This document shows, piece after piece, positions 1,333-56,808 of a DNA stretch of 64,000 nt. The translations under genes and the position numbers were made by a program. This stretch comes from Actinoallomurus soli. Its GTDB lineage: Bacteria > Actinomycetota > Actinomycetes > Streptosporangiales > Streptosporangiaceae. The stretch spans positions 62,001 to 126,000 of the forward strand of contig NZ_JAMXMV010000008.1 of assembly GCF_024055715.1 (NCBI RefSeq). The letters run 5' to 3'. How positions within the stretch are numbered: position 1 is the first letter of the stretch; each line of letters starts with the position of its first letter. The notes beneath the pieces were generated by a model. That model was not told the origin of the DNA. It searched no databases and saw nothing but the letters and a program-made list of their open reading frames with translations.

Positions 1333-1860
1333 ATGTGGGGACTGTCGCTCGAGCCCGCCCTCGACCGTACGGATCTGCTCGCCGCGCCCGTGGCGGAGGC
1401 GATCCGCGCGTGGAAGGGCGAGGACGCCTTCCAGGTGGCCGAGATCGACCCGGAGCTCGCCGACACCGCCGCGTTCTGCGAGCGGTACGGCACTCCGCTC
1501 GACACGTCGGCCAACTGCGTGATCGTCTGCGCCAAGCGGGGCGGCGAGGTGCGGCTCGCGGCCTGCGTGGTGCTCGCGACGACGCGCGCCGACGTCAACG
1601 GCGTCGTACGGCGCCGGCTCGACGCGCGGAAGGCGTCGTTCGCGCCGCAGGAGCAGGCCGTGACGGAGACGGGCATGGAGTACGGCGGGATCACGCCGTT
1701 CGGCCTGCCCGCCGAGTGGCCGGTCCTGGTGGACCGGGCCGTCGTCGAGACCCCGTACGTCGTCGTCGGCAGCGGGGTGCGGCGGTCCAAGCTGATCGTC
1801 CCCGGCGCCTCGCTCGCCGCGCTCGGCTCGGCCGAGGTCATCGAGGGCCTCGCCCGCTGA
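1333..1860 (+). CDS. YbaK/EbsC-type aminoacyl-tRNA deacylase
   Basis: A 175-residue single-domain protein of the YbaK/ProX family. Such proteins hydrolyse mischarged aminoacyl-tRNA (for example Cys- or Ala-tRNA(Pro)) in trans. Seen in the sequence: the ANCVIVCAK strand near residues 60-68, a conserved Lys near residue 100 followed by SFA, the YGGITPFG turn at about 117-124, and the GSGVRRSKL segment at about 147-154 that forms the family's substrate pocket. Which tRNA it edits cannot be read from the sequence. The start is supported by the -10 box 8 nt upstream. Confidence 0.85.
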   Translation: MWGLSLEPALDRTDLLAAPVAEAIRAWKGEDAFQVAEIDPELADTAAFCERYGTPLDTSANCVIVCAKRGGEVRLAACVVLATTRADVNGVVRRRLDARKASFAPQEQAVTETGMEYGGITPFGLPAEWPVLVDRAVVETPYVVVGSGVRRSKLIVPGASLAALGSAEVIEGLAR

Positions 1861-1886
1861 CGGACCCGGCGGCGCCTCCGCGCGCC

Positions 1887-1903
1887 GGGCCCCGGCGGGG
1901 CCC
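1887..1903 (+). terminator. GC-rich hairpin after the YbaK gene
   Basis: GGGCCCC and GGGGCCC form a perfect 7-bp stem around a GGC loop, 26 bases after the stop codon. There is no T tract. A consensus-like TTGACA at 1919-1924 follows and may be the -35 of the first kinase gene, though I see no good -10 behind it. Confidence 0.45.
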
Positions 1904-1965
1904 AGGGGCCCCGCCCGGTTGACACGATCCGGAACCTCCGGAGCGGGTTCGGCGTCAAACCCTGC

Positions 1966-2775
1966 ATGAACGCGACGGGAGTTGCGCCGCTGGGCTCGTA
2001 CGAGCTGCTGGAACGGGTCGGCGAGGGGGCCACGTCCGTGGTGTACCGCGCCACGGACCGGTTCGGGCGGACGGTCGCGGTGAAGGAGCCGCGGCGCGAG
2101 TTCGCGCACGACCCGGGCGTCCGCCGCCGCCTGGCCCGTGAGGCCCGGGCGATGGCGCGGGTGCGCAGCCCGTACGTCGCCGAGGTCTTCGACGCCTGCC
2201 TGGACGGCGACCGTCCCCACCTCGTCACCGAGTTCGTCGCGGGCGTGCCGCTGCGCGACCTGGTGACGACGTACGGGCCGTTGTGGGAGGAGGCGCTGTA
2301 CGGCTTCGCGGAGCGGTTCGCGCGGGGCCTGGCGGCGGTGCACGGGGCCGGGGTGCTGCACCGGGACCTCAAGCCCGGCAACGTCATGGTGCTCGGCGGC
2401 GTACCCAAGATCATCGACTTCGGGATCGCGCGGGAGGCGGGGACCGAGGAGGTCACCCAGCCGGGCGTGCTGACCGGGACGCCGGGTTACGTCGCGCCCG
2501 AGCTGATCGACGGCGGTCGTTGCAGTGAGGCGTCCGACGTCTTCTCGTGGGCCGCGACGGTCGCGTTCGCGGCGACGGGCCGCCCGCCGTTCGGGACGGG
2601 GTCGCTGCACGGCGTCTGCTTCCGGGTGCTGCGCGGGGCCGCCGACCTGGACGGCGTGCCCGAGCCGCTGCTGCCGCTGCTACGCCGTGCCCTGTCCCGC
2701 GACCCGGCCGAGCGCCCGACCGCGGCCTGCCTGGCGGGCCGTCTGACCGAGCGGCGGCCGGTTCCCGCGTGGTGA
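1966..2775 (+). CDS. Ser/Thr protein kinase, catalytic domain only
   Basis: A 269-residue Hanks-type kinase. The glycine loop GEGATS is at about residues 19-24, the ATP-binding Lys at 40 (VAVK), the catalytic loop HRDLKPGN with Asp134, DFG at 151-153 and the GTPGYVAPE activation/P+1 segment after it, so all catalytic residues are present. Unlike its three neighbours it stops after the kinase domain, with no proline-rich linker and no membrane segment, so it should be cytoplasmic. It leads a same-strand run of kinase genes (1966-8761) and is 32 bases from the next. Targets are unknown. Confidence 0.92.
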   Translation: MNATGVAPLGSYELLERVGEGATSVVYRATDRFGRTVAVKEPRREFAHDPGVRRRLAREARAMARVRSPYVAEVFDACLDGDRPHLVTEFVAGVPLRDLVTTYGPLWEEALYGFAERFARGLAAVHGAGVLHRDLKPGNVMVLGGVPKIIDFGIAREAGTEEVTQPGVLTGTPGYVAPELIDGGRCSEASDVFSWAATVAFAATGRPPFGTGSLHGVCFRVLRGAADLDGVPEPLLPLLRRALSRDPAERPTAACLAGRLTERRPVPAW

Positions 2776-2807
2776 CCGGTTCCGCCGGGAAGGCCGTGAG
2801 GTGACAC

Positions 2808-4472
2808 ATGCCCAGGTATCGTGACGCATCTATGGAGGGGGTCGAGACGTCCGGCGAGAGCATCGGCCGATACCGCCTGATCGAGAAGATCGGGGAAGGC
2901 GGTATGGGGGTCGTGCACCTCGCCACCGACCCCTTCGGCCGCAAGGTCGCCGTGAAGGTCCTGCGGCCCGGGGTCGCGTCGGACCAGACGGCCCTGCGCC
3001 GGCTCGCCCGCGAGGTCGACTCCATGCGCCGGGTGCACAGCCCGCACGTCGCGGAGATCGTCGACGCGGACGTGACGGCCGAGCCGCCCTACGTCGTCAC
3101 CCAGTTCGTTCCCGGCCGGACCCTGGAGCAGGCGGTCCGCGACGACGGCCCGCTGCGCGGCGACGCGCTGCAGCGGCTGGCGACGGGGCTGGCCTCCGCG
3201 CTGGCCGCCATCCACGACGCCGGCATCGTGCACCGGGACCTGAAGCCCGGCAACGTCATGTTCCTGGAGAACGGCGAGCCGGTCGTCATCGACTTCGGCA
3301 TCGCGCAGGGCGTCGACGCGACGCGGCTGACCGCGACCGGCCTCGTGATCGGCACCCCCGGCTACCTCGCCCCGGAGATCATCGAGGGTGAGGACGCCGG
3401 CGCGCCCGCGGACGTCCACGCCTGGGCCGGCACGATCGCGTACGCCGCGACGGGGCGGGCGCCGTTCGGCGGCGGCACGTTCGAGTCGATCTTCTACAAG
3501 ATCATGGAGGGCCGCCCGGACCTGGACGGCGTGCCCGAGGCGCTGCTCCCGGTCGTCCGGGCGGCGATGGCACGCAACCCGGCCGAGCGGCCGACCGCAC
3601 ACGCCCTCGTCGAGCTGACCCGGCGCATCGACGTCAACAGCACCCGGCTGGACCCGCCGTCGTCCCAGACCAAACGGCTCACCGCCGTCTCGTCCCCGCC
3701 GGCACCGGCGCCGGCCCGCCCGCGCGACTTCGTCGGGCAGCTTCCTCCGGCGCCGCCGCCTCCGCCCCCACAGCAGTACGCGCGTTCCCCGTACGGCGCG
3801 CCGGGGCCGCAGCAGGGCTCGCCGGGGTACGCACCGCGCCCGCCGAAGCCGCCGCGGCCCGATGAACCGAAGCCGTACGGCGTCTACCGGTTCCTGAGCC
3901 TGCTGCTCCTCGTCGCCGCGATCGGGCTGTCCCTGGTGACGCCCACGCTGGCGCTCATCGTCGTGCTCGCCGTGCTGCTCGTCCTGCGGACCGCCGACCG
4001 CGGCCACAAGGAGCTCACGTCCAAGCGCACCCGGCGCGGACCGCGCTCGGGCGACCTGGTCGCGGTCATCGCCAAGTCACCGTTCACGGCGGTGCGCGCG
4101 GCGCTGGGAATGCTGCTGGTCAGCCCACTGGCGATCATGGCCGGGGTCATCGTGCTGCTCATCGGGCTGGCCGCCAAGACCGCGCTGACGATCCCGCACG
4201 CGGTCGCGCTGGGCACCGCGGCGTTCGTGATCGTGCAGTGCCTGGGGCCCGGCAGCGAGCCCCCGCGCCGTCAGCTCGCGCGGTTCTGGGGAGCCGTGCT
4301 GCCGAGGCGGAACCAGGCCCTGATCGCGCTGGCGGTCATCGGATTCGTCGTCTTCCTGCTCGTGTCGTTCGCGCTCAGCCAGACGCCGGACCTGCGGCCC
4401 TTCGAGGCCCGGTCGCTCACGCACAACCTCGCCCACCTCCGCTCCGGCATCCGGAGTCTGCTCGGCGGCTGA
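2808..4472 (+). CDS. Membrane Ser/Thr protein kinase with Pro-rich linker and multi-pass C-terminal module
   Basis: 554 residues. Kinase domain about 22-275: GEGGMG loop, Lys50, HRDLKPGN with Asp144, DFG at 162-164, GTPGYLAPE. A proline-rich linker (about 285-345, with runs of Pro) leads to several hydrophobic helices between about 358 and 535. The C-terminal module resembles those of the next two genes, including an EPPRRQL motif between helices. It is not a PASTA or beta-propeller sensor. An AGGTG sits shortly upstream of the chosen ATG; a second ATG at 2832 lacks one. The kinase domain should face the cytoplasm. Confidence 0.9.
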   Translation: MPRYRDASMEGVETSGESIGRYRLIEKIGEGGMGVVHLATDPFGRKVAVKVLRPGVASDQTALRRLAREVDSMRRVHSPHVAEIVDADVTAEPPYVVTQFVPGRTLEQAVRDDGPLRGDALQRLATGLASALAAIHDAGIVHRDLKPGNVMFLENGEPVVIDFGIAQGVDATRLTATGLVIGTPGYLAPEIIEGEDAGAPADVHAWAGTIAYAATGRAPFGGGTFESIFYKIMEGRPDLDGVPEALLPVVRAAMARNPAERPTAHALVELTRRIDVNSTRLDPPSSQTKRLTAVSSPPAPAPARPRDFVGQLPPAPPPPPPQQYARSPYGAPGPQQGSPGYAPRPPKPPRPDEPKPYGVYRFLSLLLLVAAIGLSLVTPTLALIVVLAVLLVLRTADRGHKELTSKRTRRGPRSGDLVAVIAKSPFTAVRAALGMLLVSPLAIMAGVIVLLIGLAAKTALTIPHAVALGTAAFVIVQCLGPGSEPPRRQLARFWGAVLPRRNQALIALAVIGFVVFLLVSFALSQTPDLRPFEARSLTHNLAHLRSGIRSLLGG

Positions 4473-40402: not shown

Positions 40403-40576
40403 ATTGATTACCGAGGGGTCGCTCAGCGGTCGGGCGCAGGCGTAACGCAACGTGCGCAATCGGTTCCGCGAAGTTGCTCGGACGTCGTAGTCTCCCCTCA
40501 GCACTACTTGTGTCCGTCCAAACACCATCGCCTCCCCCCAAAGCGCAAGGTTTGGGTGTAACCCCCCGAGGACGTG

Positions 40577-42673
40577 ATGAAGGACCCGAATAACACGCGG
40601 GACACCGTCCCCCGGCGTGGCTCCCCGCTGTGGAGCTACGTCGTCTGTGTCACGGTGGTCGGCGTCGCGGCCCTTGCCACTTCGTTCGCCGGCCTGAGCG
40701 GCGGCGACCTTCGGACGCTGGTCGGCGGCCCGCTCTTCTGGATCCTGGCCTTCCTGATCGTGTGCGGAGAGCTCAAGCCGATCATCACGCCGGGCTCCAC
40801 CGAGACCACCGGCGCGACGGTCTCCACGACCTTCACCTTCGCCACCATGATCTACGCCGGCCTGCCGACCGCGCTGCTCCTGCACGCCGTCGCCACGGTG
40901 GCGACCGGCACGCTGCGCCGCCGCGCCCTGCACCGCACGGCCTTCAACGTCGGGCAGTACACCCTCAGCTTCGTCGCGGCGGGGCTGGTGCTGCTGACGG
41001 CCGGCATCTCGGCGTCGCCGACGCACCCGTGGACGCCGCGGGCCCTCGACCTGCCGACGATGCTGCTCGCCGGGGTGGCGTACTTCGTCGTCAATCTCGT
41101 GCTCGTCAACACCGCGATCGCGCTGCACGAGCGCACCTCCGTGCTCAAGACCATGCGCTGGAACCTCGGCCTGCAGCTCCTCGTGCACAGCGCGCTGCTC
41201 GGGCTGGCGCCGCTGGTGGTCGTGGCCATGAGCTGGTCGGCGGCGTTCGTCCCGCTGTTCGTCCTGCCGTTCATCGCGGTCTACATCAACGCCTCGGTGT
41301 CGGTCAGCCGTGAGTACCAGGCCCTGCACGACGCCCTCACCGGCCTGCCCAACCGCAAGCTCCTCATCGTGCGCACGGAGGAGGCGCTCGCGCAGGCGCG
41401 TCACCAGGCCGAGCGCGCCGTGGCCGCGCGGGGCCGGGACCACGAGCCGCCCCGGCGGGTCGGGCTGTTCCTCCTCGACCTCGACCGGTTCAAGGAGGTC
41501 AACGACACGCTGGGGCACCCGACCGGCGACCGTCTCCTGCAGCTCGTCGCGCACCGTCTCACCCACAGCGTGCGGCCCGGTGACCTGGTCGCGAGGCTCG
41601 GCGGCGACGAGTTCGCGGTGCTGCTGCCCACCGTGCGTGACGCACGCGGGGCCCGCGAGGTCGCGGCGCGGCTACGGGCGGCGCTGAACGAACCGGTGCG
41701 TCTCGACGGGATGTCGTTCGACCTGGAGGCCAGTGTCGGCATCGCCCTGCACCCCGACCACGCGCCCGACTTCGAGCTGCTGATGCAGCGCGCCGACGTC
41801 GCGATGTACGTGGCGAAGGAAAACCGCACCGGGGTAGAGATCTATTCACCGGATCGGGATCGCAACTCGCCCGAACGCCTCGGCCGGCAGGGGCAACTGC
41901 GCCGCGCGATCGACCGCTGCGAGCTGGAGCTGTTCTTCCAGCCCAAGCTGTTCCTCGGCAACGGCCGCCCGGTCGGCATGGAGGCGCTGCTGCGCTGGCG
42001 GCACCCGCAGAAGGGCCTGCTCACCCCCGAGCAGTTCCTGCCGATCGCCGAGCAGACCTACCTCATGCGCGGCATCACCGACTTCGTGGTCGACGCCGCG
42101 CTGACCCAGGTCGCCCGCTGGTGGAAGGCCGGGCTCCGCGTCCAGGTCGCCATCAACGCCTCCGGCCGTGACCTGCTCGACTCGGCGCTCACCGAGATGA
42201 TCGCATCGGGCCTGCTCCGGCACGAGGTGCCGCCGCAGGCCCTGCAGCTGGAGATCACCGAGCGGATCCTGATGAACGAGCCCGCCTACGCCGCCGACAC
42301 CGTCGAGGCGCTGGCCGCGCTGGGCATCCCGCTCAGCCTGGACGACTTCGGCACCGGATACTCCTCGCTCGTGCGGCTGAAGAGCCTGCCGGTCGAGGAG
42401 ATCAAGATCGATTCCTCCTTCGTCAGCCGGCTCCGCGAGGCGGGCGACGACGCGATCATCGTCCGGTCGATCATCGATCTGGCCCGCACGCTCGGCCTCC
42501 GCTCGGTCGCCGAAGGCGTCGAGAACGCCGAGACCGAGGACCTCCTGCGCAACCTCGGCTGCGACGCCGGCCAGGGCTACCACTTCCAGCCGCCGATGAC
42601 CGCGGCGGAGGCGACCGACTGGCTGCGCGAGCACGTCACGAAACTCCAGGCCCCCGAGGGTGCGGCACTCTGA
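40577..42673 (+). CDS. Membrane GGDEF-EAL protein (c-di-GMP synthase/phosphodiesterase)
   Basis: 698 residues from ATG; a GTG one codon earlier is also possible. Seven or so membrane helices fill about 15-240. The GGDEF domain has the intact LGGDEFAVL motif and the inhibitory I-site RPGD exactly five residues before it. The EAL domain has MEALLRW, LEITER, DDFGTGYSS, KIDSSFV and EGVE, so all metal and catalytic residues look present. Both making and breaking of c-di-GMP are possible. The membrane part is of MASE type, signal unknown. A related protein at 54100 has lost the GGDEF signature. Confidence 0.93.
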   Translation: MKDPNNTRDTVPRRGSPLWSYVVCVTVVGVAALATSFAGLSGGDLRTLVGGPLFWILAFLIVCGELKPIITPGSTETTGATVSTTFTFATMIYAGLPTALLLHAVATVATGTLRRRALHRTAFNVGQYTLSFVAAGLVLLTAGISASPTHPWTPRALDLPTMLLAGVAYFVVNLVLVNTAIALHERTSVLKTMRWNLGLQLLVHSALLGLAPLVVVAMSWSAAFVPLFVLPFIAVYINASVSVSREYQALHDALTGLPNRKLLIVRTEEALAQARHQAERAVAARGRDHEPPRRVGLFLLDLDRFKEVNDTLGHPTGDRLLQLVAHRLTHSVRPGDLVARLGGDEFAVLLPTVRDARGAREVAARLRAALNEPVRLDGMSFDLEASVGIALHPDHAPDFELLMQRADVAMYVAKENRTGVEIYSPDRDRNSPERLGRQGQLRRAIDRCELELFFQPKLFLGNGRPVGMEALLRWRHPQKGLLTPEQFLPIAEQTYLMRGITDFVVDAALTQVARWWKAGLRVQVAINASGRDLLDSALTEMIASGLLRHEVPPQALQLEITERILMNEPAYAADTVEALAALGIPLSLDDFGTGYSSLVRLKSLPVEEIKIDSSFVSRLREAGDDAIIVRSIIDLARTLGLRSVAEGVENAETEDLLRNLGCDAGQGYHFQPPMTAAEATDWLREHVTKLQAPEGAAL

Positions 42674-42913: not shown

Positions 42914-43267
42914 ATGCTTAACGAGCACGCCGCCCATGGCTCCGCCGCCGCGGGCCAGGCCCGCGGCGGCGGAGCCATCACCCGCGATGAGGTCGCGCAC
43001 CTCGCCCGGCTGTCCCGGCTGGCGCTGCGCGAGGACGAGCTCGACCACCTCGCCACCCAGCTCGACGACATCATCTCCGCGGTCGCGCGCGTCCAGGAGG
43101 TCGCCGCCGAGGACATCCCGCCGACCTCGCACGCGCTGCCGCTGACCAACGTCTTCCGCGCCGACGAGGTGCGGCCCTCGCTCACGCCCGACCAGGCGCT
43201 GTCCGGCGCGCCCGCCGCCGACGAGCAGCGTTTCAAGGTTCCGCGGATTCTCGACGAGGAGGCGTGA
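42914..43267 (+). CDS. gatC: Aspartyl/glutamyl-tRNA amidotransferase subunit C
   Basis: 117 residues. From [25 protein letters not shown] it is a normal GatC, the subunit that ties GatA to GatB. Before it is an unusual Ala/Gly-rich extension of about 21 residues ([20 protein letters not shown]); GatC proteins normally start just before the ITR. The extension is encoded largely by a perfect 43-nt palindrome. The C-terminal [15 protein letters not shown] is typical. No in-frame start is seen closer to ITR. First gene of gatC-gatA-[two genes]-gatB. Confidence 0.93.
42936..42978 (+). repeat. Perfect 43-nt palindrome in the 5' end of gatC
   Basis: Arms of 21 bases (42936-42956 and 42958-42978) are exact reverse complements around a single A at 42957. 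They are almost all G and C, flanked by ATGGC and GCCAT. In the mRNA this would be an exceptionally stable hairpin starting 23 bases after the start codon. It encodes the GatC extension. Confidence 0.85.
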
Positions 43268-43379: not shown

Positions 43380-44876
43380 ATGAGCGCGGAGCTGATCAAG
43401 AAGACCGCGGCCGAGCTGGCCGGGCTGATCTCCTCCGGCGAGGCGTCGGCGGTCGAGGTCGCCCAGGCGCACCTCGACCGGATCGCCGCCGTCGAGGACT
43501 CCGTCAAGGCGTTCACGCACATCGACCCGGAGGCGGCCCTCGCGCAGGCCCGTACGGTCGACGAGCGCCGCGCGGCGGGGGAGACGCTCGGCCCGCTGGC
43601 CGGCGTGCCGATCGCGCACAAGGACGTCTTCACGACGACGGACATGCCGACGACCGCCTCCTCCAAGATCCTGGAGGGGTGGCGCCCGCCGTACGACGCG
43701 ACCGTCACGCGGCGGCTGCGCGAGGCCGGGCTGGTCATCCTCGGCAAGACCAACATGGACGAGTTCGCGATGGGCTCCTCGACGGAGAACAGCGCGTTCG
43801 GCCCCACCCACAACCCGTGGGACCTGAACAAGATCCCCGGCGGGTCGTCCGGCGGGTCCTCGGCGGCCGTCGCCGCGTACGAGGCGCCTCTGGCGACCGG
43901 CACCGACACCGGCGGCTCGATCCGCCAGCCCGCCGCGGTCACCGGCCTCGTCGGCATGAAGCCGACCTACGGCGGGTCCTCCCGGTACGGCCTGATCGCG
44001 TTCGCGTCCTCCCTGGACACGCCGGGCCCGCTGGCCCGTACGGTCCTGGACGCCGCGCTGCTGCACGAGGCGTTCTCCGGGCACGACCCGATGGACTCCA
44101 CGTCGATCGACCAGCCGGTGCCGCCCGTCGTCGAGGCGGCGCGCCGCGGCGAGGTCGGCGGCCTGCGGATCGGCGTCGTCAAGGAGTTCGGCGGCGAGGG
44201 CTACCAGCCGGGCGTGCTGGCGCGGTTCCACGAGGCCGTCGAGCTGCTCGAGTCGCTCGGCGCCAAGGTCGTCGAGGTGTCCTGCCCGCACTTCACGTAC
44301 GCGCTGCCGGCGTACTACCTGATCGCGCCGTCGGAGTGCTCGTCCAACCTGGCCCGGTTCGACGGCATGCGCTACGGCCTGCGCGTCGGCGACGACCAGA
44401 CCCGCTCGGCCGAGGAGGTCATGGCGCTCACCCGCGCCGAGGGCTTCGGGCCGGAGGTCAAGCGCCGGATCATGCTCGGCACCTACGCCCTGTCCAGCGG
44501 CTACTACGACGCCTACTACGGCAAGGCCCAGCAGGTGCGCACGCTGATCGCCCGTGACTTCGACGCCGCGTTCGAGCAGGTCGACGTGCTGGTCTCGCCG
44601 ACGACGCCGACGACCGCGTTCCCGATCGGCGAGCGCGCCGACGATCCGATGGCGATGTACCTCGCCGACCTGTGCACGATCCCGTCCAACCTCGCCGGCA
44701 ACGCCGCGATCTCGGTGCCGTGCGGCCTGGCGGACGAGGACTCCCTGCCGGTCGGCCTGCAGATCATGGCGCCGGTCCTCGCCGACGACCGCGTCTACCG
44801 CGTCGGCGCCGCCGTCGAGCGGGCCCTGCAGGACCGCTGGGGCGGCCCGCTCCTGGCCAAGGCCCCCGAACTGTAG
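43380..44876 (+). CDS. gatA: Aspartyl/glutamyl-tRNA amidotransferase subunit A
   Basis: 498 residues. GatA releases ammonia from glutamine for amidation of Glu-tRNA(Gln) or Asp-tRNA(Asn). The Ser-cisSer-Lys triad is Lys81 (IAHKDVF), Ser156 (GGSSGGSS) and Ser180 (DTGGSIRQP), each two residues later than in the S. aureus enzyme. The gap to gatC (43268-43379) contains GAGCGAGTGAGGAGCGTGAG, a GAGCG-rich run before the ATG. The gene downstream, 17 bases away, is not gatB but an AAA ATPase. Confidence 0.97.
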
Positions 44877-44893
44877 GGGGGAGGAACGGCGGC

Positions 44894-46219
44894 ATGATCA
44901 CCCGCATCGAGATCGACGGCTTCAAGTCCTTCTCGGACTTCAGCCTGGACCTGCCGCCGTTCCTCGCCGTCATCGGCACCAACGCCAGCGGCAAGTCCAA
45001 CCTCGTCGAGGCGCTGACGTTCTTCGCGCTCGCGGCCACGGAAGGGCTCGACGATGCGGTCGCGGCCGTACGCGGTGACGCGCGTGGACTGTTCCGGCAG
45101 CGCGGGGACGGATCTCGCTGCGAAAAGATCCGATTCGCCGCCGAATTCGTTTTCCAGCCCTCGCCCCCTTGGCGTGACGCTCTACCGAGTCGCTGGCGGT
45201 ACGAGATGGAGCTCTCGTGGGGAACACCGCCCGGCCGGCTGGAAGGTCTGGTTGCGGGCGCCCAACGCCTCATCGCGCTGGACCCTCGGGCGGATACGTG
45301 GCCGGTCAGGTTCGGCGCGGCTGAAAAGTGGCAGGAAGCGTATCTCTCTTACGAGGCGCGGCCCAGAGTGATCGAAGGGCGCGCCGCCCCAGCCGCACGA
45401 GAGTCGTCCGCCCTTTCCCTGCTGCTTTCGTATCGGGGCGAGGATCCCGCGGACGATGAGATCGTCGGTAGGGTCGAAACGGAACTCCTCTACATTCGGA
45501 CTCTCCATCTCGAGGCCGGCGCGCTTCGTGCGTCCAGCGAGATGGGTGGCCCGGAGTTCATGGACGTGCACGGACGCCACCTGCCGAACTTCCTTCGCTG
45601 GTTGAGCCTGGGGACGGGAGACGAGAACCGGCCCCTCGGGGTGGTCGCCGATATCGAGACGCATCTTGTCGGACTGGTTCGTGAGGTCAGCGGGTTCGAG
45701 ATCGTCGAGGACGAGCGACGAAGAGACGTCAGGCTGGAATTCTCCTCCCCGTACACCGGCCCGGTCGGCGCGGAGTTCGCTTCTGACGGGACTCTCCGGA
45801 TGCTCGCTATCTTGGCGGCTCTGCATGATCCGCGAGCTGCCCTAGTGGCGGTGGAAGAACCGGAGAACGGCGTGTTCCCCGAACGCCTGCGGCATCTCCT
45901 GGCATTGGTCCAGGAATTGGTGAGCGATATCCGAGCGGATCCCAACGATGAGCTACGGCCCGGCGCCTTCCAGCTCGCGTCGCTCAGGCAGGCTTTGGTG
46001 ACGAGTCATTCACCGGTGATCCTTGACGTGGTCGAGCGAGACCGGATCGTCTTTCTCGACACGACGACCCTCCTGGAAGGCGGAGTGGCGAGCCACGTGA
46101 CGCGGGTGCGTTGGATCCGCGAGCCAGGTGGCCCGGTGACCGGCTCCGGCGAGCGCTGGGCGCGGATCACCGATTCCGAGCTTCGCCGCTTTCGGGCCGG
46201 AGTCGAGGAACCGGTCTGA
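44894..46219 (+). CDS. AAA/SMC-type ATPase (AAA_21, OLD-like) of a putative defence pair
   Basis: 441 residues. MITRIEIDGFKSFSDFSLDL leads to Walker A GTNASGKSN (28-36). The signature-like SDGTLRMLAILAAL is at 298-311, Walker B LVAVEEPENGVFP at 317-329 and a TSHSP switch at 370-374. This is the RecF/SMC/OLD ATPase head without a coiled coil or an attached TOPRIM domain; a TOPRIM-like protein is encoded by the next gene. It lies 17 bases after gatA and overlaps the next gene by one base. Codons such as GAA, GAT, CTT and TCT are commoner than in gatA/gatB. I infer acquisition into the gat operon and a role in phage defence, known only by analogy. Confidence 0.85.
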   Translation: MITRIEIDGFKSFSDFSLDLPPFLAVIGTNASGKSNLVEALTFFALAATEGLDDAVAAVRGDARGLFRQRGDGSRCEKIRFAAEFVFQPSPPWRDALPSRWRYEMELSWGTPPGRLEGLVAGAQRLIALDPRADTWPVRFGAAEKWQEAYLSYEARPRVIEGRAAPAARESSALSLLLSYRGEDPADDEIVGRVETELLYIRTLHLEAGALRASSEMGGPEFMDVHGRHLPNFLRWLSLGTGDENRPLGVVADIETHLVGLVREVSGFEIVEDERRRDVRLEFSSPYTGPVGAEFASDGTLRMLAILAALHDPRAALVAVEEPENGVFPERLRHLLALVQELVSDIRADPNDELRPGAFQLASLRQALVTSHSPVILDVVERDRIVFLDTTTLLEGGVASHVTRVRWIREPGGPVTGSGERWARITDSELRRFRAGVEEPV

Positions 46220-46857
46220 TGCGTAGCCTTAGCTGTGTCCTCGTACGAGAGGGGCCGTCCGACGACTGGTTCCTTCCGGTGGTGCTGCAGCGCGCTCTGC
46301 AGGACATGTGCCGGGAGTTCTTCCCGTCCTGTGGCGAGGTCCAGGAGATCCGATCCCTGCCCGAGGCCGGCAACCAGCACCCGGATTCCGTGGTGCGGGC
46401 GATCGAGGCGGAGCTCGGGACATTCGATGTCGCGCTGTACCACCACGATGGGGCTCCGCCGGCCATATCCGACCCAGTGATCAAGCGGATGCAAGGAGCC
46501 TGGCAGGAGGCCGGATTCCAGGAGCCGCTCGTCCCCGTGGTGCCGGTCCGCGAGACCGAGGCGTGGCTATTGGCCGACCCGGAGGCGATCAGGTCCGTGC
46601 TGCGCGTCCGCAAGCTTCCTGAGCTCGGATTCGGACCGGAACGGGTGCACTCCGTGCCTCGGCCGAAGGAGGAGTTCGAGGCCATCGTCCGGCAGGTCGC
46701 CGGCCGGAAGGCCGTCGGTGAGCATGGCATACGCGACTATGTGATCCGGGTCGGCGCGACGGTCCAGATCGATGTACTGCGAAGGGTTCCCGCCTTCAGA
46801 GACTGGTGGGACGAGATGATAGAAGCACTGGAGAGGCTGGGATACCAGCATGGCTGA
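46219..46857 (+). CDS. TOPRIM-like protein (DUF4276 type), partner of the AAA ATPase
   Basis: 212 residues. A first-strand Glu11 in [10 protein letters not shown], an acidic loop [10 protein letters not shown] with Asp77, and [15 protein letters not shown] (about 110-124) match the DUF4276-type TOPRIM pattern of EG, D and E(I/T)EAWLLAD. TOPRIM domains use these acidic residues with a metal to cut or join nucleic acid. Start ATG shares one base with the ATPase stop, and the end overlaps the gatB start by eight bases. AAA ATPase plus TOPRIM pairs occur in OLD/PARIS-like defence systems; membership here is inference. Confidence 0.8.
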
Positions 46858-48352
46858 CACGACGACGCTCGTGCCGTACGACGAGGCGCTGGCGAAATAC
46901 GAGCCGGTGCTGGGCATCGAGACCCACATCGAGCTGGGCACGAAGACGAAGATGTTCTGCGGGTGCGCGACCGAGTTCGGCGCGGAGCCGAACACCCAGG
47001 TCTGTCCCGTCTGCCTGGGCCTGCCCGGGTCGCTGCCGGTGACGAATCGCTCGGCGATCGAGGGCATCATCAAGATCGGCCTGGCGCTGAACTGCACGAT
47101 CGTCGAGTGGTGCCGCTTCGCCCGGAAGAACTACTTCTATCCGGACATGCCGAAGGACTTCCAGATCTCGCAGTACGACGAGCCGCTCTGCGTCGACGGG
47201 TACCTCGAGGTCGAGGTCGAGGGGGAGACGTACCGCATCGAGATCGAGCGGGTCCACATGGAGGAGGACACCGGCAAGTCGCTGCACGTCGGCGGCGCCA
47301 CCGGCCGGATCCACGGGGCCGACTTCTCCCTCGTCGACTACAACCGGGCCGGCATCCCGCTCGTCGAGATCGTGACCAAGCCGATCGTCGCGACGGGTGA
47401 CAAGGCGCCGCTGGTCGCGCGGGCGTACGCCACCGAGCTGCGCGAGCTCGTCCGCGCGGTCGGCGTCTCGGACGTGCGCATGGAGCAGGGCTCGATGCGC
47501 TGCGACGTCAACGTCTCGCTGATGCCCAAGGGCGCGTCCGAGTGGGGCACCCGCACCGAGACCAAGAACGTCAACTCGCTGCGCTCCGTCGAGCGCGCCG
47601 TCCGGTTCGAGATCGAGCGGCAGGCCGGCGTCCTGGACGCGGGCGGCAAGGTGATCCAGGAGACGCGGCACTTCCAGGAGGCCACCGGGACGACGACGAG
47701 CGGGCGCAGCAAGGAGGAGGCGCAGGACTACCGCTACTTCCCCGAGCCCGATCTGGTGCCGATGGCGCCGTCGCGCGAGTGGGTCGAGCAGCTGCGCGCC
47801 TCGCTGCCGGAGCTGCCCGCCGCCCGCCGCCGCCGCGTACAGGGCGAGTGGGGCGTCGCCGACAAGGAGCTGCAGGACATCGTCAACGCCGGCGCGCTCG
47901 ACCTGATCGAGGAGACGGTGCGCGAGGGCGCCGAGCCGGCCGCGGCCCGTAAGTGGTGGATGAACGAACTGTCCCGGCGGGCCACCGAGCAGGGCGTCGA
48001 CCTGGCCTCGCTGCCGGTGACCCCGGCCGACGTGGCGCGGGTCGGCGCGCTGGTCGCCGAGGGCAGCATCAACGACAAGCTGGCCCGGCAGGTCTTCGAC
48101 GGCGTGCTCGCCGGCGAGGGCACGCCGGACGAGGTCGTCGAGAAGCGCGGCCTGAAGGTCGTCAGCGACGAGGGCCAGCTCGGTTCGGTCATCGACGAGG
48201 TCATCGCCGCCAATCCCGACATCGCGGACAAGGTTCGCGGCGGCAAGGTCGCGGCGGCGGGGGCGCTGGTCGGCGCGGTCATGAAGGCCACGCGCGGCCA
48301 GGCCGACGCCGGCCGGGCCCGTGAGCTGATCATCGAGAAACTCACGAGCTGA
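46850..48352 (+). CDS. gatB: Aspartyl/glutamyl-tRNA amidotransferase subunit B
   Basis: 500 residues. GatB binds the mischarged tRNA and activates its side-chain carboxylate. [13 protein letters not shown] opens the cradle domain; zinc cysteines are Cys37, Cys39, Cys52 and Cys55 ([16 protein letters not shown]). The helical and YqeY-like tail domains complete the protein to the usual length. Its ATG lies inside the end of the TOPRIM gene, so its translation may depend on that gene. gatA and gatB are normally adjacent or close; here two foreign genes lie between. Confidence 0.97.
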
Positions 48353-53656: not shown

Positions 53657-54099
53657 ATTCCGTAAAGGCTGCCCTTCCGGGCTTTTGCCGTTTCGAACGG
53701 AGCGCGGACCGGCGCTTTGCCGATTCGGGCGGTCGCGCGGAGAAAGCGGCCTGAAGCGCTCAGTGTCCGATTACGCAACGTCGCGAGTTGTCGCCGGGTG
53801 GACGCCCAGCCTCAATCGCTCCGTGACCTACGGACCGTACATTGAGCATCGAGGCTGACCAGAGTGACCGCCGCGCGGGCGCCGCCGGAGACCCCGGCAC
53901 GTCCGCGTCCGGTGCGACCCACATCGGTGACGTCCCGTTCGCGGGTCGTCACCCTTACCGGCTGACACGGCATTCGACAGACAGGTTTACGGCGCACCGG
54001 AGACGGCCACGAGTCGTCACCCGAAAAGTCATGCGTTCGGCACCCGGCGCACCCGGTGCTCCGGAAGAATCTGATCAAGACTTAGAGAGCGAGTAAGTG
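53657..54099 (+). other. 443-base gap before the second GGDEF-EAL gene
   Basis: I see no convincing gene. An 84-codon frame starting at a TTG (53842) ends one base before the GGDEF-EAL GTG, but its composition is unlike a real protein and it has no ribosome binding site. A frame on the other strand (53812-54078) is equally unconvincing. Base composition is less GC-rich than the coding regions. TACATT at about 53837 could be a -10. No riboswitch class is recognised. Confidence 0.5.
53671..53686 (+). terminator. Short hairpin with T tract after the dehydrogenase
   Basis: GCCC-TTCC-GGGC followed by TTTT is the only T-tailed stem I found in the window. The stem has only four pairs, so efficiency would be low. 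Confidence 0.45.
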
Positions 54100-56808
54100 A
54101 TGACCGGCGAGCGGACCGAGCGGCGGCGCTGGGGGATACCGGCGGCCGCGCGGCCGTTCTACCCCATGCTCGCGCTCGCCGTCATCCACGCGGTCGCGTT
54201 CCTGTCCGGCCGGGGGATCGACCGGGCCTGGCTCACCGCCTGGGCCGCGGCGACCGCGTCGACCTCCCTGCTGTTCGCCATGTGGCGGGCGCCGCAGACC
54301 CCCGCCGGCAAGGTCGGCCGGGACACCTGGCGGTGGTTCGGCGTCGCAGGAATGGCCTGGTCCGCCGGTGCGGCGGTCCAGGCGATCTCCCGGATCGTCT
54401 TCAGCCGGTCCGCGGTGGCGGTCTCCCCGGCCGACCTGTTCTTCCTGATCGCACTCGGCGCGATGACGGCGGGCTTCGTCATGCCCATCGGCCTGCCGCG
54501 CAGCGCCCGTCCCTGGCTGCGCTACCTCGCCGACACGTACGTCTGCGCCTGCGCCCTGTTCGTGGTCGCCTGGGTGGCCGTGTTCGATCACCTGTACCGG
54601 CTGTCCGGTGAGGGCTGGGCGGACTTCCTCATCGAGCTGCGGTATCCCCTGCTCGACGCCGTGCTGGTCTGCGGGCTGCTGCCGATGGCGGTCGGCACGG
54701 TGCGCGGGTACCGCCGCTCCGCCATCGTCGCCTACTGCGCGCTCGCCGTCCTCACCGCGGCCGACGTCCTGTACGTCGTGGGCCGGCTCAACGGCCGCGG
54801 GCCGTACGACACCGCCGCCGACCTGGCGCACCTGGCCGGGCTGCTCTTCCTCGGCGCGGCTCCGTGGGTGCTGCGCCGGTGGCACGGCGACGCGACCCGG
54901 CGACGGCTGGTCGGGCCCGGCATCGCGCCGACCGCCACGGCCGCCGCCGCGGCGATCTTCGTGGCCGGGCACACGCTGACCGGCGCGCAGGGCCTGCGGC
55001 CGGTCGTCCCGATCATCGCGGGCTCCGCCGTCCTCGTCGTCCTGGCCCGCCTCGGCGAGCTCGTCCACGACAACGACCGGCTGCGGCGCGCCGCGCGGAC
55101 CAGCGAGAAGCACTTCCGCGCGCTGACCGAGAGCATCAACGACGTCGTCGTCATCTGCGACCTCGGCGGCGTCATCGAGTACGTCAGCGCCGGCGCCCAG
55201 CCGTCGTACCACTACCCCGCCGAGGAGCTGCTCGGCCGGTCAGTGACCGAGCTCATCCACCCCGAGGACCTGCCGAAGGTCGTCGGAGCGGTGCGCCGGC
55301 TGCTCCGGGAGAAGGGCGACGACGTCGCCCGCCTCGCGTGCCGGGTCCGCGCCCCCGACGGCACCTGGCTGCCCACCGAGAGCACGATCTGCCGGTACGG
55401 CTCCTCGGGCGGCGGGGCCGCGGACCGGCTCCTGGTCACCGTACGGGACTTCAGCGAGCAGGCCGCGCTGCAGCGGCAGGTCACCCACCTGACGTTCCAC
55501 GACGGGCTCACCGGCCTCCCGAACCGCGCCTACTTCGAAGAACGCGCCCGCGAGGTCGTGGAGCGGTCCCACGGCACGGTCGCGGTCATCTTCGTCGACC
55601 TCGACGGCTTCACCGCCGTGAACGACTCGATCGGCCACGCTGGCGGTGACCAGGTGCTGGCGCAGGCCGCCCGCCGCCTGCGAGCCGGGGTCCCGGCCGA
55701 CGACACGGTCGCCCGCTGGGGGAGCGACGAGTTCGCCGTGCTCGTGGAGAACGCCACCGAGGTCCAGGCCGTCGTCGACCTCGGCGAGCGGCTCGTGCGG
55801 ACGCTGGCGGGCGAGCCGTACCGCGTCGGCGACCGCAGCATCGTGCTGACCGCGAGCGTCGGGGTCGCCTTCACCGAGGACGGCATCGGCGGGCTCGAGC
55901 TCATCCGCAACGCCGACGTCGCGCTGTCCCGCGCCAAGGACCTCGGCGGAGGCCGGGTCGAGGTGTTCGCCGCCAAGATGCACGCCGACGTCGTACGCCG
56001 GCTCGAGCTCGGCGGCGAGTTGCAGCGTGCCCTCACCGAGCAGCGGTTCACGGTGGAGTTCCAGCCGGTGGTCGAGCTCGCCACGTCACGGGTCACGGGC
56101 GTCGAGGCGCTCGTGCGCTGGTGGCGGGACGGGGAGTTCGTGCCGCCCGAGGAGTTCATCGGCACCGCCGAGGAGTCGGGCCTGATGATCCCGCTCGGCA
56201 ACTGGGTGCTGCGCGAGGCGTGCTCCCAGGTGGCCCGCTGGCGCGCGTCCGGCTGGGACATCGGGCTGTCGATCAACCTTCGGCCGCGCGAGATCGCCGC
56301 GCCGCGGTTCGTCGAGTCGGTGGCGACCGCCCTCGACGACAGCGGCCTGTGCCCCGGGATGCTCACCCTCGAGGTCGAGGAGGAGGTCCTCGTCGACGGC
56401 GGCGACGAGCTGATCGCCCGGCTGTCCGCGCTGCGCGACCTCGGGGTGCGGCTGGCCATCGACGACTTCGGCACCGGCTACGCCTCGCTGGCCTTCCTCC
56501 GGCAGCTGCCGGTCGACGTCATCAAGATCGACCCGTCGTTCGTCGCCGGCCTCGGCCGGGACGAGACCCTGACGCTGCTGACCCGCACGATCGTCCGGGT
56601 CGGCCGCGACCTCGGGCTGAGCGTCGTGGCCGAGGGCATCGAGCGGCCCGAGCAGCTCGTGCTCCTGAAGGAGATGGGCTGCCCGCGCGGTCAGGGATTC
56701 CTGGTCGCCCGCCCGATGGCGGCCCAGGGGGTCGAGGCGCTCGTGCGGACGAACCCGCGCGGCGAGGCGTCCATCCCGCTCCACGGCTCCGCTCTTTCCG
56801 CAGGCTGA
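54100..56808 (+). CDS. Membrane PAS-GGDEF-EAL protein with degenerate GGDEF
   Basis: 902 residues from ATG; a GTG just before is possible. About ten membrane helices fill 20-325, a PAS domain about 345-460 (FRALTESINDVVVICDLGG), then GGDEF and EAL. The GGDEF signature is changed to WGSDEFAVL and the I-site Arg is absent (PADD), so cyclase activity is doubtful. The EAL part keeps VEALVRW, DDFGTGYAS, KIDPSFV and EGIE; LEVEEE replaces the usual LEITE. It is likely a c-di-GMP phosphodiesterase or sensor regulated through PAS. Confidence 0.92.
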   Translation: MTGERTERRRWGIPAAARPFYPMLALAVIHAVAFLSGRGIDRAWLTAWAAATASTSLLFAMWRAPQTPAGKVGRDTWRWFGVAGMAWSAGAAVQAISRIVFSRSAVAVSPADLFFLIALGAMTAGFVMPIGLPRSARPWLRYLADTYVCACALFVVAWVAVFDHLYRLSGEGWADFLIELRYPLLDAVLVCGLLPMAVGTVRGYRRSAIVAYCALAVLTAADVLYVVGRLNGRGPYDTAADLAHLAGLLFLGAAPWVLRRWHGDATRRRLVGPGIAPTATAAAAAIFVAGHTLTGAQGLRPVVPIIAGSAVLVVLARLGELVHDNDRLRRAARTSEKHFRALTESINDVVVICDLGGVIEYVSAGAQPSYHYPAEELLGRSVTELIHPEDLPKVVGAVRRLLREKGDDVARLACRVRAPDGTWLPTESTICRYGSSGGGAADRLLVTVRDFSEQAALQRQVTHLTFHDGLTGLPNRAYFEERAREVVERSHGTVAVIFVDLDGFTAVNDSIGHAGGDQVLAQAARRLRAGVPADDTVARWGSDEFAVLVENATEVQAVVDLGERLVRTLAGEPYRVGDRSIVLTASVGVAFTEDGIGGLELIRNADVALSRAKDLGGGRVEVFAAKMHADVVRRLELGGELQRALTEQRFTVEFQPVVELATSRVTGVEALVRWWRDGEFVPPEEFIGTAEESGLMIPLGNWVLREACSQVARWRASGWDIGLSINLRPREIAAPRFVESVATALDDSGLCPGMLTLEVEEEVLVDGGDELIARLSALRDLGVRLAIDDFGTGYASLAFLRQLPVDVIKIDPSFVAGLGRDETLTLLTRTIVRVGRDLGLSVVAEGIERPEQLVLLKEMGCPRGQGFLVARPMAAQGVEALVRTNPRGEASIPLHGSALSAG

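Follow-up and report, generated by a model that had tools for sequence, protein, structure and literature searches.

What brings an ATPase gene and a nuclease-like gene into the gatCAB amidotransferase operon, and what keeps them there? This question is raised by a 64,000-nucleotide stretch of the Actinoallomurus soli genome (contig NZ_JAMXMV010000008.1, positions 62,001 to 126,000; hereafter the window, whose own numbering is used throughout). Here the gene order is gatC, gatA, a 17-nt spacer, a gene for an SMC/ABC-like ATPase of 441 amino acids (44894..46219), a gene for a DUF4276 TOPRIM-type protein of 212 amino acids (46219..46857), and gatB, all on the + strand. The host assembly comprises 9.4 Mb in 60 contigs and is 98% complete. 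We regard the pair as probably a two-gene conflict module of the OLD/PARIS-like kind, long resident at one site, where it has been swapped, fixed, or deleted. Comparison of sequences shows the anatomy of the locus, the family of the two proteins, their loyalty to the site, their disagreement with GatA, the relics left behind, and purifying selection.

Both proteins match the candidate system HEC-01 over their full length. The ATPase is recognized by the PADLOC model HEC-01A (E = 1.3e-92; residues 1-435 against positions 1-458 of the 464 in the profile) and its partner by HEC-01B (E = 6.9e-44; residues 1-210 against positions 1-215 of 217), while Pfam assigns AAA_21 (E = 5e-20) and AAA_15 to the ATPase and DUF4276 (E = 8e-11) to the partner. 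The pair is therefore not the undescribed system that the initial annotation of this DNA had proposed. It is of a known kind, and its novelty is the site.

The AlphaFold model of the TOPRIM protein, made with a 45-row alignment, has a pLDDT of 92.4 and a pTM of 0.89. Its top match in the Protein Data Bank (PDB) is 6nk8, an OLD C-terminal region with the Toprim domain (probability 1.00, E = 1.0e-3, TM-scores 0.42/0.44), followed by a runner-up at E = 9e-3. The ATPase model (pLDDT 89) resembles SMC, Rad50, Septu PtuA, and retron ATPases. PDB searches by sequence gave one chance-level match for the TOPRIM protein (E = 0.66) and none for the ATPase at 1e-3. In alignment A3 (45 sequences), residues E11, H75, and E114 of the TOPRIM protein are invariant, and D15 and D77 are kept in at least 90% of the rows. 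The pair E11-G12 is encoded at 46249..46254 (E11 being invariant in alignment A1 as well), H75-x-D77 at 46441..46449, and ETEAW, residues 112-116 with W116 also invariant in A3, at 46552..46566. As modeled, the protein has a Toprim fold with conserved acidic residues, which are eroded in one gat-linked subtype. The ATPase carries the Walker A motif GTNASGKSN (residues 28-36; 44975..45001) and the Walker B region EEPENG (residues 321-326; 45854..45871). Its K34, E321, and E322 are invariant in alignments A2 and A4, the Walker B of L173, which is in neither alignment, reads ED, and the GKS of Walker A is kept in 75/75 full-length gat-linked ATPases; relics were left out of these motif counts. 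All four motifs named in the initial annotation (GTNASGKSN, EEPENG, EG..D, and ETEAWLLAD) were recovered in the translations.

A survey of the site took in 345 genomes of the order. The window ATPase as query (E <= 1e-30) matched 25 of them, and in 25/25 the match lay between gatA and gatB. A profile of gat-linked ATPases at the same threshold matched 92 of the 345, all of which were checked: the ATPase stands between gatA and gatB in 76, a relic stands there in one (G080), and the match is elsewhere only in 15, with no gat gene in the 5-10 kb around it. The profile search scored five candidates per genome, and 92 may undercount. The 76 genomes are spread over 20 of the 70 genera of the order, so that the single placement of a cassette first envisaged gives way to a recurrent resident of this gap. 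The arrangement is also regular, as the gap between gatA and the ATPase gene is at most 60 nt in 66/70 loci, the ATPase and TOPRIM genes overlap by 4 or 1 nt in 65/68, and the TOPRIM gene overlaps gatB by 4 or 8 nt in 38/65 (repeats and tandem, fused, and after-gatB loci excluded). Moreover, GC content at third codon positions (GC3) is lower in the ATPase gene than in gatA in 93/93 loci, repeats counted.

Beyond the order, a phylum sample of 396 genomes, including the window's own, gave four other matches at E <= 1e-25, with no gat gene in the 3.7-9.5 kb read around them. The pair is thus not a component common at gat across actinobacteria with core-like codon use, an outcome that the initial annotation had left room for: at this threshold, none of the 395 other genomes has a gat-linked copy. 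A scan of species genomes, in which the best 80 of at least 292 relatives were considered, yielded 24 gat-linked loci, all actinobacterial. Among these best 80, 22 of the 24 lie between gatA and gatB. Five of these 22 belong to genera of other orders, namely Micromonospora (2), Actinoplanes, Winogradskya, and Kitasatospora; in the other two of the 24, both from Streptomyces, the ATPase gene follows gatB and no TOPRIM protein was recognized. The remaining 56 of the 80 loci (54 in other phyla, 2 actinobacterial) showed no gat gene in the DNA read around them. Several of the 24 loci duplicate genomes that also bear our G handles. Both searches lean toward gat-linked loci because the query profile and the peptide patterns were derived from gat-linked rows, yet no non-gat row falls inside the gat branches of the ATPase tree. 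One of the gat-linked pairs (L004) is found on NZ_LT559118.1, an 11.85-Mb replicon of Nonomuraea gerenzanensis that PLSDB labels "plasmid" and that is probably a mislabeled chromosome; the ATPase of G153, a genome of the host's family, is at least 96% identical to the N. gerenzanensis ATPase, as would suit a host of the Streptosporangiales type. A literature search that covered few subscription papers and bioRxiv preprints found, among the papers listed, no report of this or any other defense pair in gatCAB. What is new here is a fixed address across genera and orders, combined with allele swap, fixation, and decay in place.

How often the pair became linked to gat was approached with two ATPase trees. 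On a FastTree phylogeny of 157 ATPases, 75 of them gat-linked, the gat label needs 2 changes, compared with a mean of 52 for shuffled labels; 12 repeat loci (removed by hand), rows shorter than 330 amino acids, and 13 rows at least 96% identical were left out. In a mixture-model tree of 53 rows, the 32 gat rows form one side of a branch with support 92, which is not decisive. The link may therefore have arisen once, as in the mixture-model tree (the better model, with fewer rows), or twice, as FastTree suggests.

Within the site, ATPase distances follow TOPRIM distances closely (rho 0.91; 57 loci of the larger group), and in the same loci they follow GatA distances weakly (rho 0.23). In 47 of the 251 pairs with a GatA distance below 0.08, the ATPases are more than 50% different; between L030 and L136, for example, GatA is 0.006 apart and the ATPase 0.69 apart. 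When the state of the site (type a, type b, type II, empty, relic, or after gatB) is mapped on a tree of GatA from 96 loci, 29 changes are needed, against a shuffled mean of 46.5; repeats and loci with a GatA below 440 amino acids were left out, and 13 type a rows remain. The scatter of type a is close to that of shuffled labels (12 changes, with 204/500 shuffles as low), and types a and b occupy the same place within genera g29 and g17. In G211 (L243, 2612-6432), the space between gatA and gatB holds two pairs in tandem, first one of type b and then one of type a.

Two further ideas on exchange were set aside. Among distant pairs, the first 42 ATPase codons show an amino acid identity of 0.78 versus 0.28 in the rest and a third-position identity of 0.70 versus 0.51, where composition alone predicts 0.55 versus 0.41. 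We do not claim them as a recombination anchor because composition largely matches the third-position identity, non-gat pairs behave alike, and the scan selected for peptides in that stretch. Likewise, carriage as phage or plasmid cargo was rejected, as one viral-contig scan with a single peptide pattern gave no relative, and the TOPRIM protein, used as a tblastn query, matched one phage record distantly (24%) and one replicon listed as a "plasmid", that of N. gerenzanensis.

In the window's own genus, the pair is apparently a recent arrival. Of the eight genus genomes, the window genome (G000) alone is matched at gat. Six of the seven others, the nearest relative (GatA 98% identical) included, have an empty gap between gatA and gatB; for G005 the evidence is the missing match at gat. 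Compared with the pair-less G007, the window gatA is 94-99% identical per 150 nt (93% in the first 150 nt) and gatB 86-100% per 50 nt, up to the junction. The first codons of the window gatB (MADT for MSTE) are like those of occupied loci, and the rest is like pair-less relatives. Long donor flanks were looked for at the insertion and none was seen, since gatA and gatB match G007 to the junctions. The view of the pair as a foreign cassette in an essential operon is thus upheld as to foreign-looking codons, recent arrival, and an operon that should be essential; it fails in that the event is recurrent and not a one-off. Genus mates G007 (L200) and G003 (L204) carry HEC-01-like pairs away from gat.

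The site also records loss. We read 48 regions upstream of gatB, a non-random set (40 + 8) hand-chosen from the listed gatB places: the pair is present in 7 of them and a relic in 8, gatA joins gatB plainly in 27, a gap of ~3.4 kb separates the two in 5, and 1 has no visible gatA. In each of the eight relics (G067, G212, G079, G083, G080, G076, G082, and G159), the beginning of the ATPase gene or the end of the TOPRIM gene survives (start in 6, end in 6, both in 4). In G083, GatA now ends in EGLGYQHG, an ending seen in several TOPRIM proteins. A Walker A stretch is left in five relics, with the lysine changed in G067, G212, G079, and G080 and unchanged in G159, which could reflect early loss of ATPase function or chance. 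By locus, the Walker A relics with a changed lysine are L134, L138, L150, and L223, and L242 is the exception. When relics are counted, the pair or a trace of it is present in 15/15 genomes of g29 and in 4/4 of g30. The initial annotation held that loss of the pair could harm gatB expression; this idea is weakened because gatA runs directly into gatB in many relatives and the eight relics keep gatB. The five ~3.4-kb gaps contain opposite-strand genes, and of their ten main frames nine were scanned, all nine encoding thioester-domain (TED) proteins. In G023, one TED gene lies between the pair and gatB. The loci with opposite-strand TED genes between gatA and gatB, which belong to other genera, are L147, L148, L149, L152, L156, and L145.

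Where the pair persists, it is under purifying selection. For close pairs (ATPase distance <0.25), the median ratio of nonsynonymous to synonymous substitution rates (dN/dS) is 0.34 for the ATPase (173 pairs), 0.22 for the TOPRIM protein (146 pairs), and 0.16 for GatA (173 pairs). We consider chance or an annotation artifact excluded because both profiles match over full length, the pair recurs in the same place, and the median dN/dS among close relatives is well under 1.

The gat genes around the pair in the window are genuine by their Pfam matches. gatC (42914..43267, 117 amino acids; Pfam GatC, E = 1.3e-19) and gatA (43380..44876, 498 amino acids; Pfam Amidase, E = 8e-160) precede the 17-nt spacer (44877..44893), in which a Shine-Dalgarno-like GGAGG ahead of the ATPase start may serve as a ribosome site; the spacer's GGAGGAACGGCGGC is also found in several relatives and relics. 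The ATPase stop and the TOPRIM start overlap by 1 nt in TGATG (46217..46221), and the TOPRIM end and the gatB start overlap by 8 nt in ATGGCTGA (46850..46857), where gatB begins (46850..48352, 500 amino acids; Pfam GatB_N, E = 2.5e-113). These spacings had been described correctly to the base in the initial annotation, as had the lower codon GC bias of the pair: GC3 is 0.77 for the ATPase gene and 0.81 for the TOPRIM gene, compared with 0.99 for gatA, 0.97 for gatB, and 0.93 for gatC. Two large GGDEF-EAL proteins are encoded on either side of the region (40574-42673 and 54097-56808). In the host genome (98% complete), neither glutaminyl-tRNA synthetase (GlnRS) nor asparaginyl-tRNA synthetase (AsnRS) was found above the cutoff, so that the cell likely depends on GatCAB alone for Gln-tRNA and Asn-tRNA, and the operon, judged from gene content, should be essential.

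By analogy with PARIS, the SMC-like ABC ATPase would probably act as sensor and scaffold, and the DUF4276 TOPRIM protein would probably be the putative effector. Some trigger, perhaps a phage protein, would free the effector or switch it on, and it would then cut nucleic acid and bring cell growth to a stop. In these actinomycetes, one branch of the module, or two, has become loyal to the place directly behind gatA. Transcription of the pair there should be shared with essential genes, and its reading frames overlap those of its neighbors. At this site, the module moves between lineages, gives way to highly divergent alleles, and disappears by deletion. The division into sensor and effector, the nuclease activity, and the cotranscription are what we infer in this scheme.

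A tighter version of the scheme would tie the module functionally to GatCAB, with the ATPase watching translation or GatCAB, the TOPRIM protein cutting the GatCAB-dependent tRNA-Gln and tRNA-Asn, and alleles turning over under phage pressure at the fixed site; it would amount to immunity organized around the indirect charging of tRNA. Its leads are the host without GlnRS or AsnRS and PARIS AriB, which cuts tRNA-Lys, tRNA-Thr, and tRNA-Asn according to the available sections of PMC12409363; alleles that swap beside a near-unchanged GatA count against it, and on these comparisons we would call it improbable. If instead the pair were a housekeeping accessory that aids GatCAB, for instance in clearing tRNA that is misacylated or damaged, and were kept in the operon for that reason, then its site loyalty, its presence in every sampled genome of four genera, the purifying selection on it, and again the missing GlnRS and AsnRS would all be understandable. 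However, a match at gat is missing from most genomes of the order and 27/48 of the gaps read are plain, alleles ~70% different lie beside near-identical GatA, the pair evolves faster and has a lower GC3 than GatA, and decay is frequent; we hold such a role to be unlikely.

A selfish, addiction-like module would explain the persistence in another way: the overlaps would make careless deletion costly, the conserved gatA and gatB would let recombination spread the pair, and any benefit to the host would be secondary. Many gatA-gatB junctions are nevertheless clean and traceless, and no long donor flank is seen in the window, where both gat genes agree with those of the pair-less G007 as far as the junctions. 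This leaves the explanation rather unlikely, in spite of the overlapping gene ends, the ATPase start or TOPRIM end kept in 8/8 relics, and the exchange at one site, which agree with it. Finally, the site might be meaningless, a gap that tolerates insertions with the pair as one passenger among others, as the TED genes in 5/48 sampled gaps (~3.4 kb), the one behind the pair in G023, and the further genes that separate the pair from gatB in some Micromonosporaceae could suggest. We find this quite improbable, as nothing else lies between gatA and the pair in the sample, the TED genes, lying on the opposite strand, interrupt the operon instead of joining it, and the gat-linked ATPases are one or two clades while the order's other HEC-01 copies lie elsewhere.

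The preferred reading, a conflict module long resident behind gatA, has to be weighed against several observations as well. The TM-scores of the TOPRIM model to OLD are modest (0.42/0.44), and HEC-01 itself is a candidate system for which no functional proof was found. Among the 10 neighbors of the pair, gatC included, none has a PADLOC match at 1e-10, so that a defense island gives no support, and one scan of viral contigs with a single peptide pattern found no viral relative. The correlation between ATPase and GatA distances, although weak, exceeds all 300 permutations, and strong branches of the GatA tree force only part of the 29 changes (at least 9 for type a and 10 for type b). In addition, the pair is present in 23/23 genomes of g43, g44, g45, and g58, which is more like a domesticated gene. 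In this fixed form, none of the 19 non-redundant rows retains the DPK-motif lysine of the TOPRIM protein, and several have also lost E11, H75, or D77, while the TOPRIM median dN/dS is 0.32, compared with 0.25-0.27 in the other groups; the ATPase is short (362 amino acids) and keeps its GKS. Loss of active-site residues under purifying selection is evidence against a plain nuclease effector in these genera. In the fixed form, selection thus maintains a protein whose active site is weakened or altered, and a change of role is possible. Its loci include L155, L170-L176, L178-L190, and others.

Defense genes have mostly been sought in islands and mobile elements, whereas the candidate pair described here has a fixed address in a core operon, and this loyalty to a site is what should surprise a specialist. 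Searches based on islands can miss systems that stand alone in housekeeping operons. The locus makes three questions testable: can core operons act as stable yet exchangeable immune loci, does the choice of the gat site stem from a link with tRNA charging, and why, in some genera, are active residues lost from the nuclease part but kept in the ATPase?

Comparing the pair with known systems, HEC-01 shares the most with it. Both window proteins match over full length, adjoin with a 1-nt overlap, and come in the same order, and the gat-linked L004, L038, and L130 match the models PDLC04184 and PDLC04210 as the window pair does. The pair differs in lying within gatCAB, in its loyalty to that site across many genera, and in having no other defense gene among its 10 neighbors. 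The name HEC, for Hma-embedded, reflects how the candidates were found (PMC12988326, available sections), and we do not take that setting as a requirement for every HEC-01 member. In the same sections, HEC-06 is named as active and HEC-01 is not among the systems so named; a text search of PMC9252829 found no mention of HEC. The ATPase is partly similar to MADS MAD3 (NCBIfam, 85.8 bits), far under the cutoff of 420 bits. Its fold is also that of Septu PtuA and retron ATPases, and the PtuA profile matches at E = 1.7e-9. PtuB, however, is an HNH protein, whereas the partner here matches only DUF4276 and HEC-01B.

OLD-ABC ATPases are widely paired with nucleases (PMC12839542, in the part available), and the OLD classes include PARIS as a proposed class 4 (PMC10568477, likewise in part). 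With OLD class 1, or GajA, the window pair shares the Toprim fold matched by 6nk8, and a relative, L022, has the ATPase and TOPRIM parts in one open frame. It differs in that the window has two genes and not one chain, the GajA profile matches only partially (E = 2.9e-11), and no GajB helicase adjoins. Single frames of this kind occur only in L022 (G209, 1501-3537, 678 codons) and L027 (G066, 949-2646, 565 codons); they may be fusions, deletions, or sequencing errors, and they resemble single-chain OLD proteins. PARIS was rejected as the family of the pair, because the window effector is a DUF4276 protein with no AriB model among the 17 PADLOC matches at E <= 1. The AriA profile does match the ATPase (E = 1.1e-21), far behind HEC-01A. 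The initial comparison with OLD- and PARIS-like pairs accordingly stands for the kind, an ATPase with a TOPRIM protein, and not for PARIS itself. PARIS is a related module that does act on phage: its trigger proteins bind AriA and AriB is freed, AriB being a two-metal tRNase (available sections of PMC12409363). The likeness to PARIS is thus one of how the two systems would work, with an ABC ATPase and a TOPRIM protein encoded by separate genes in both.

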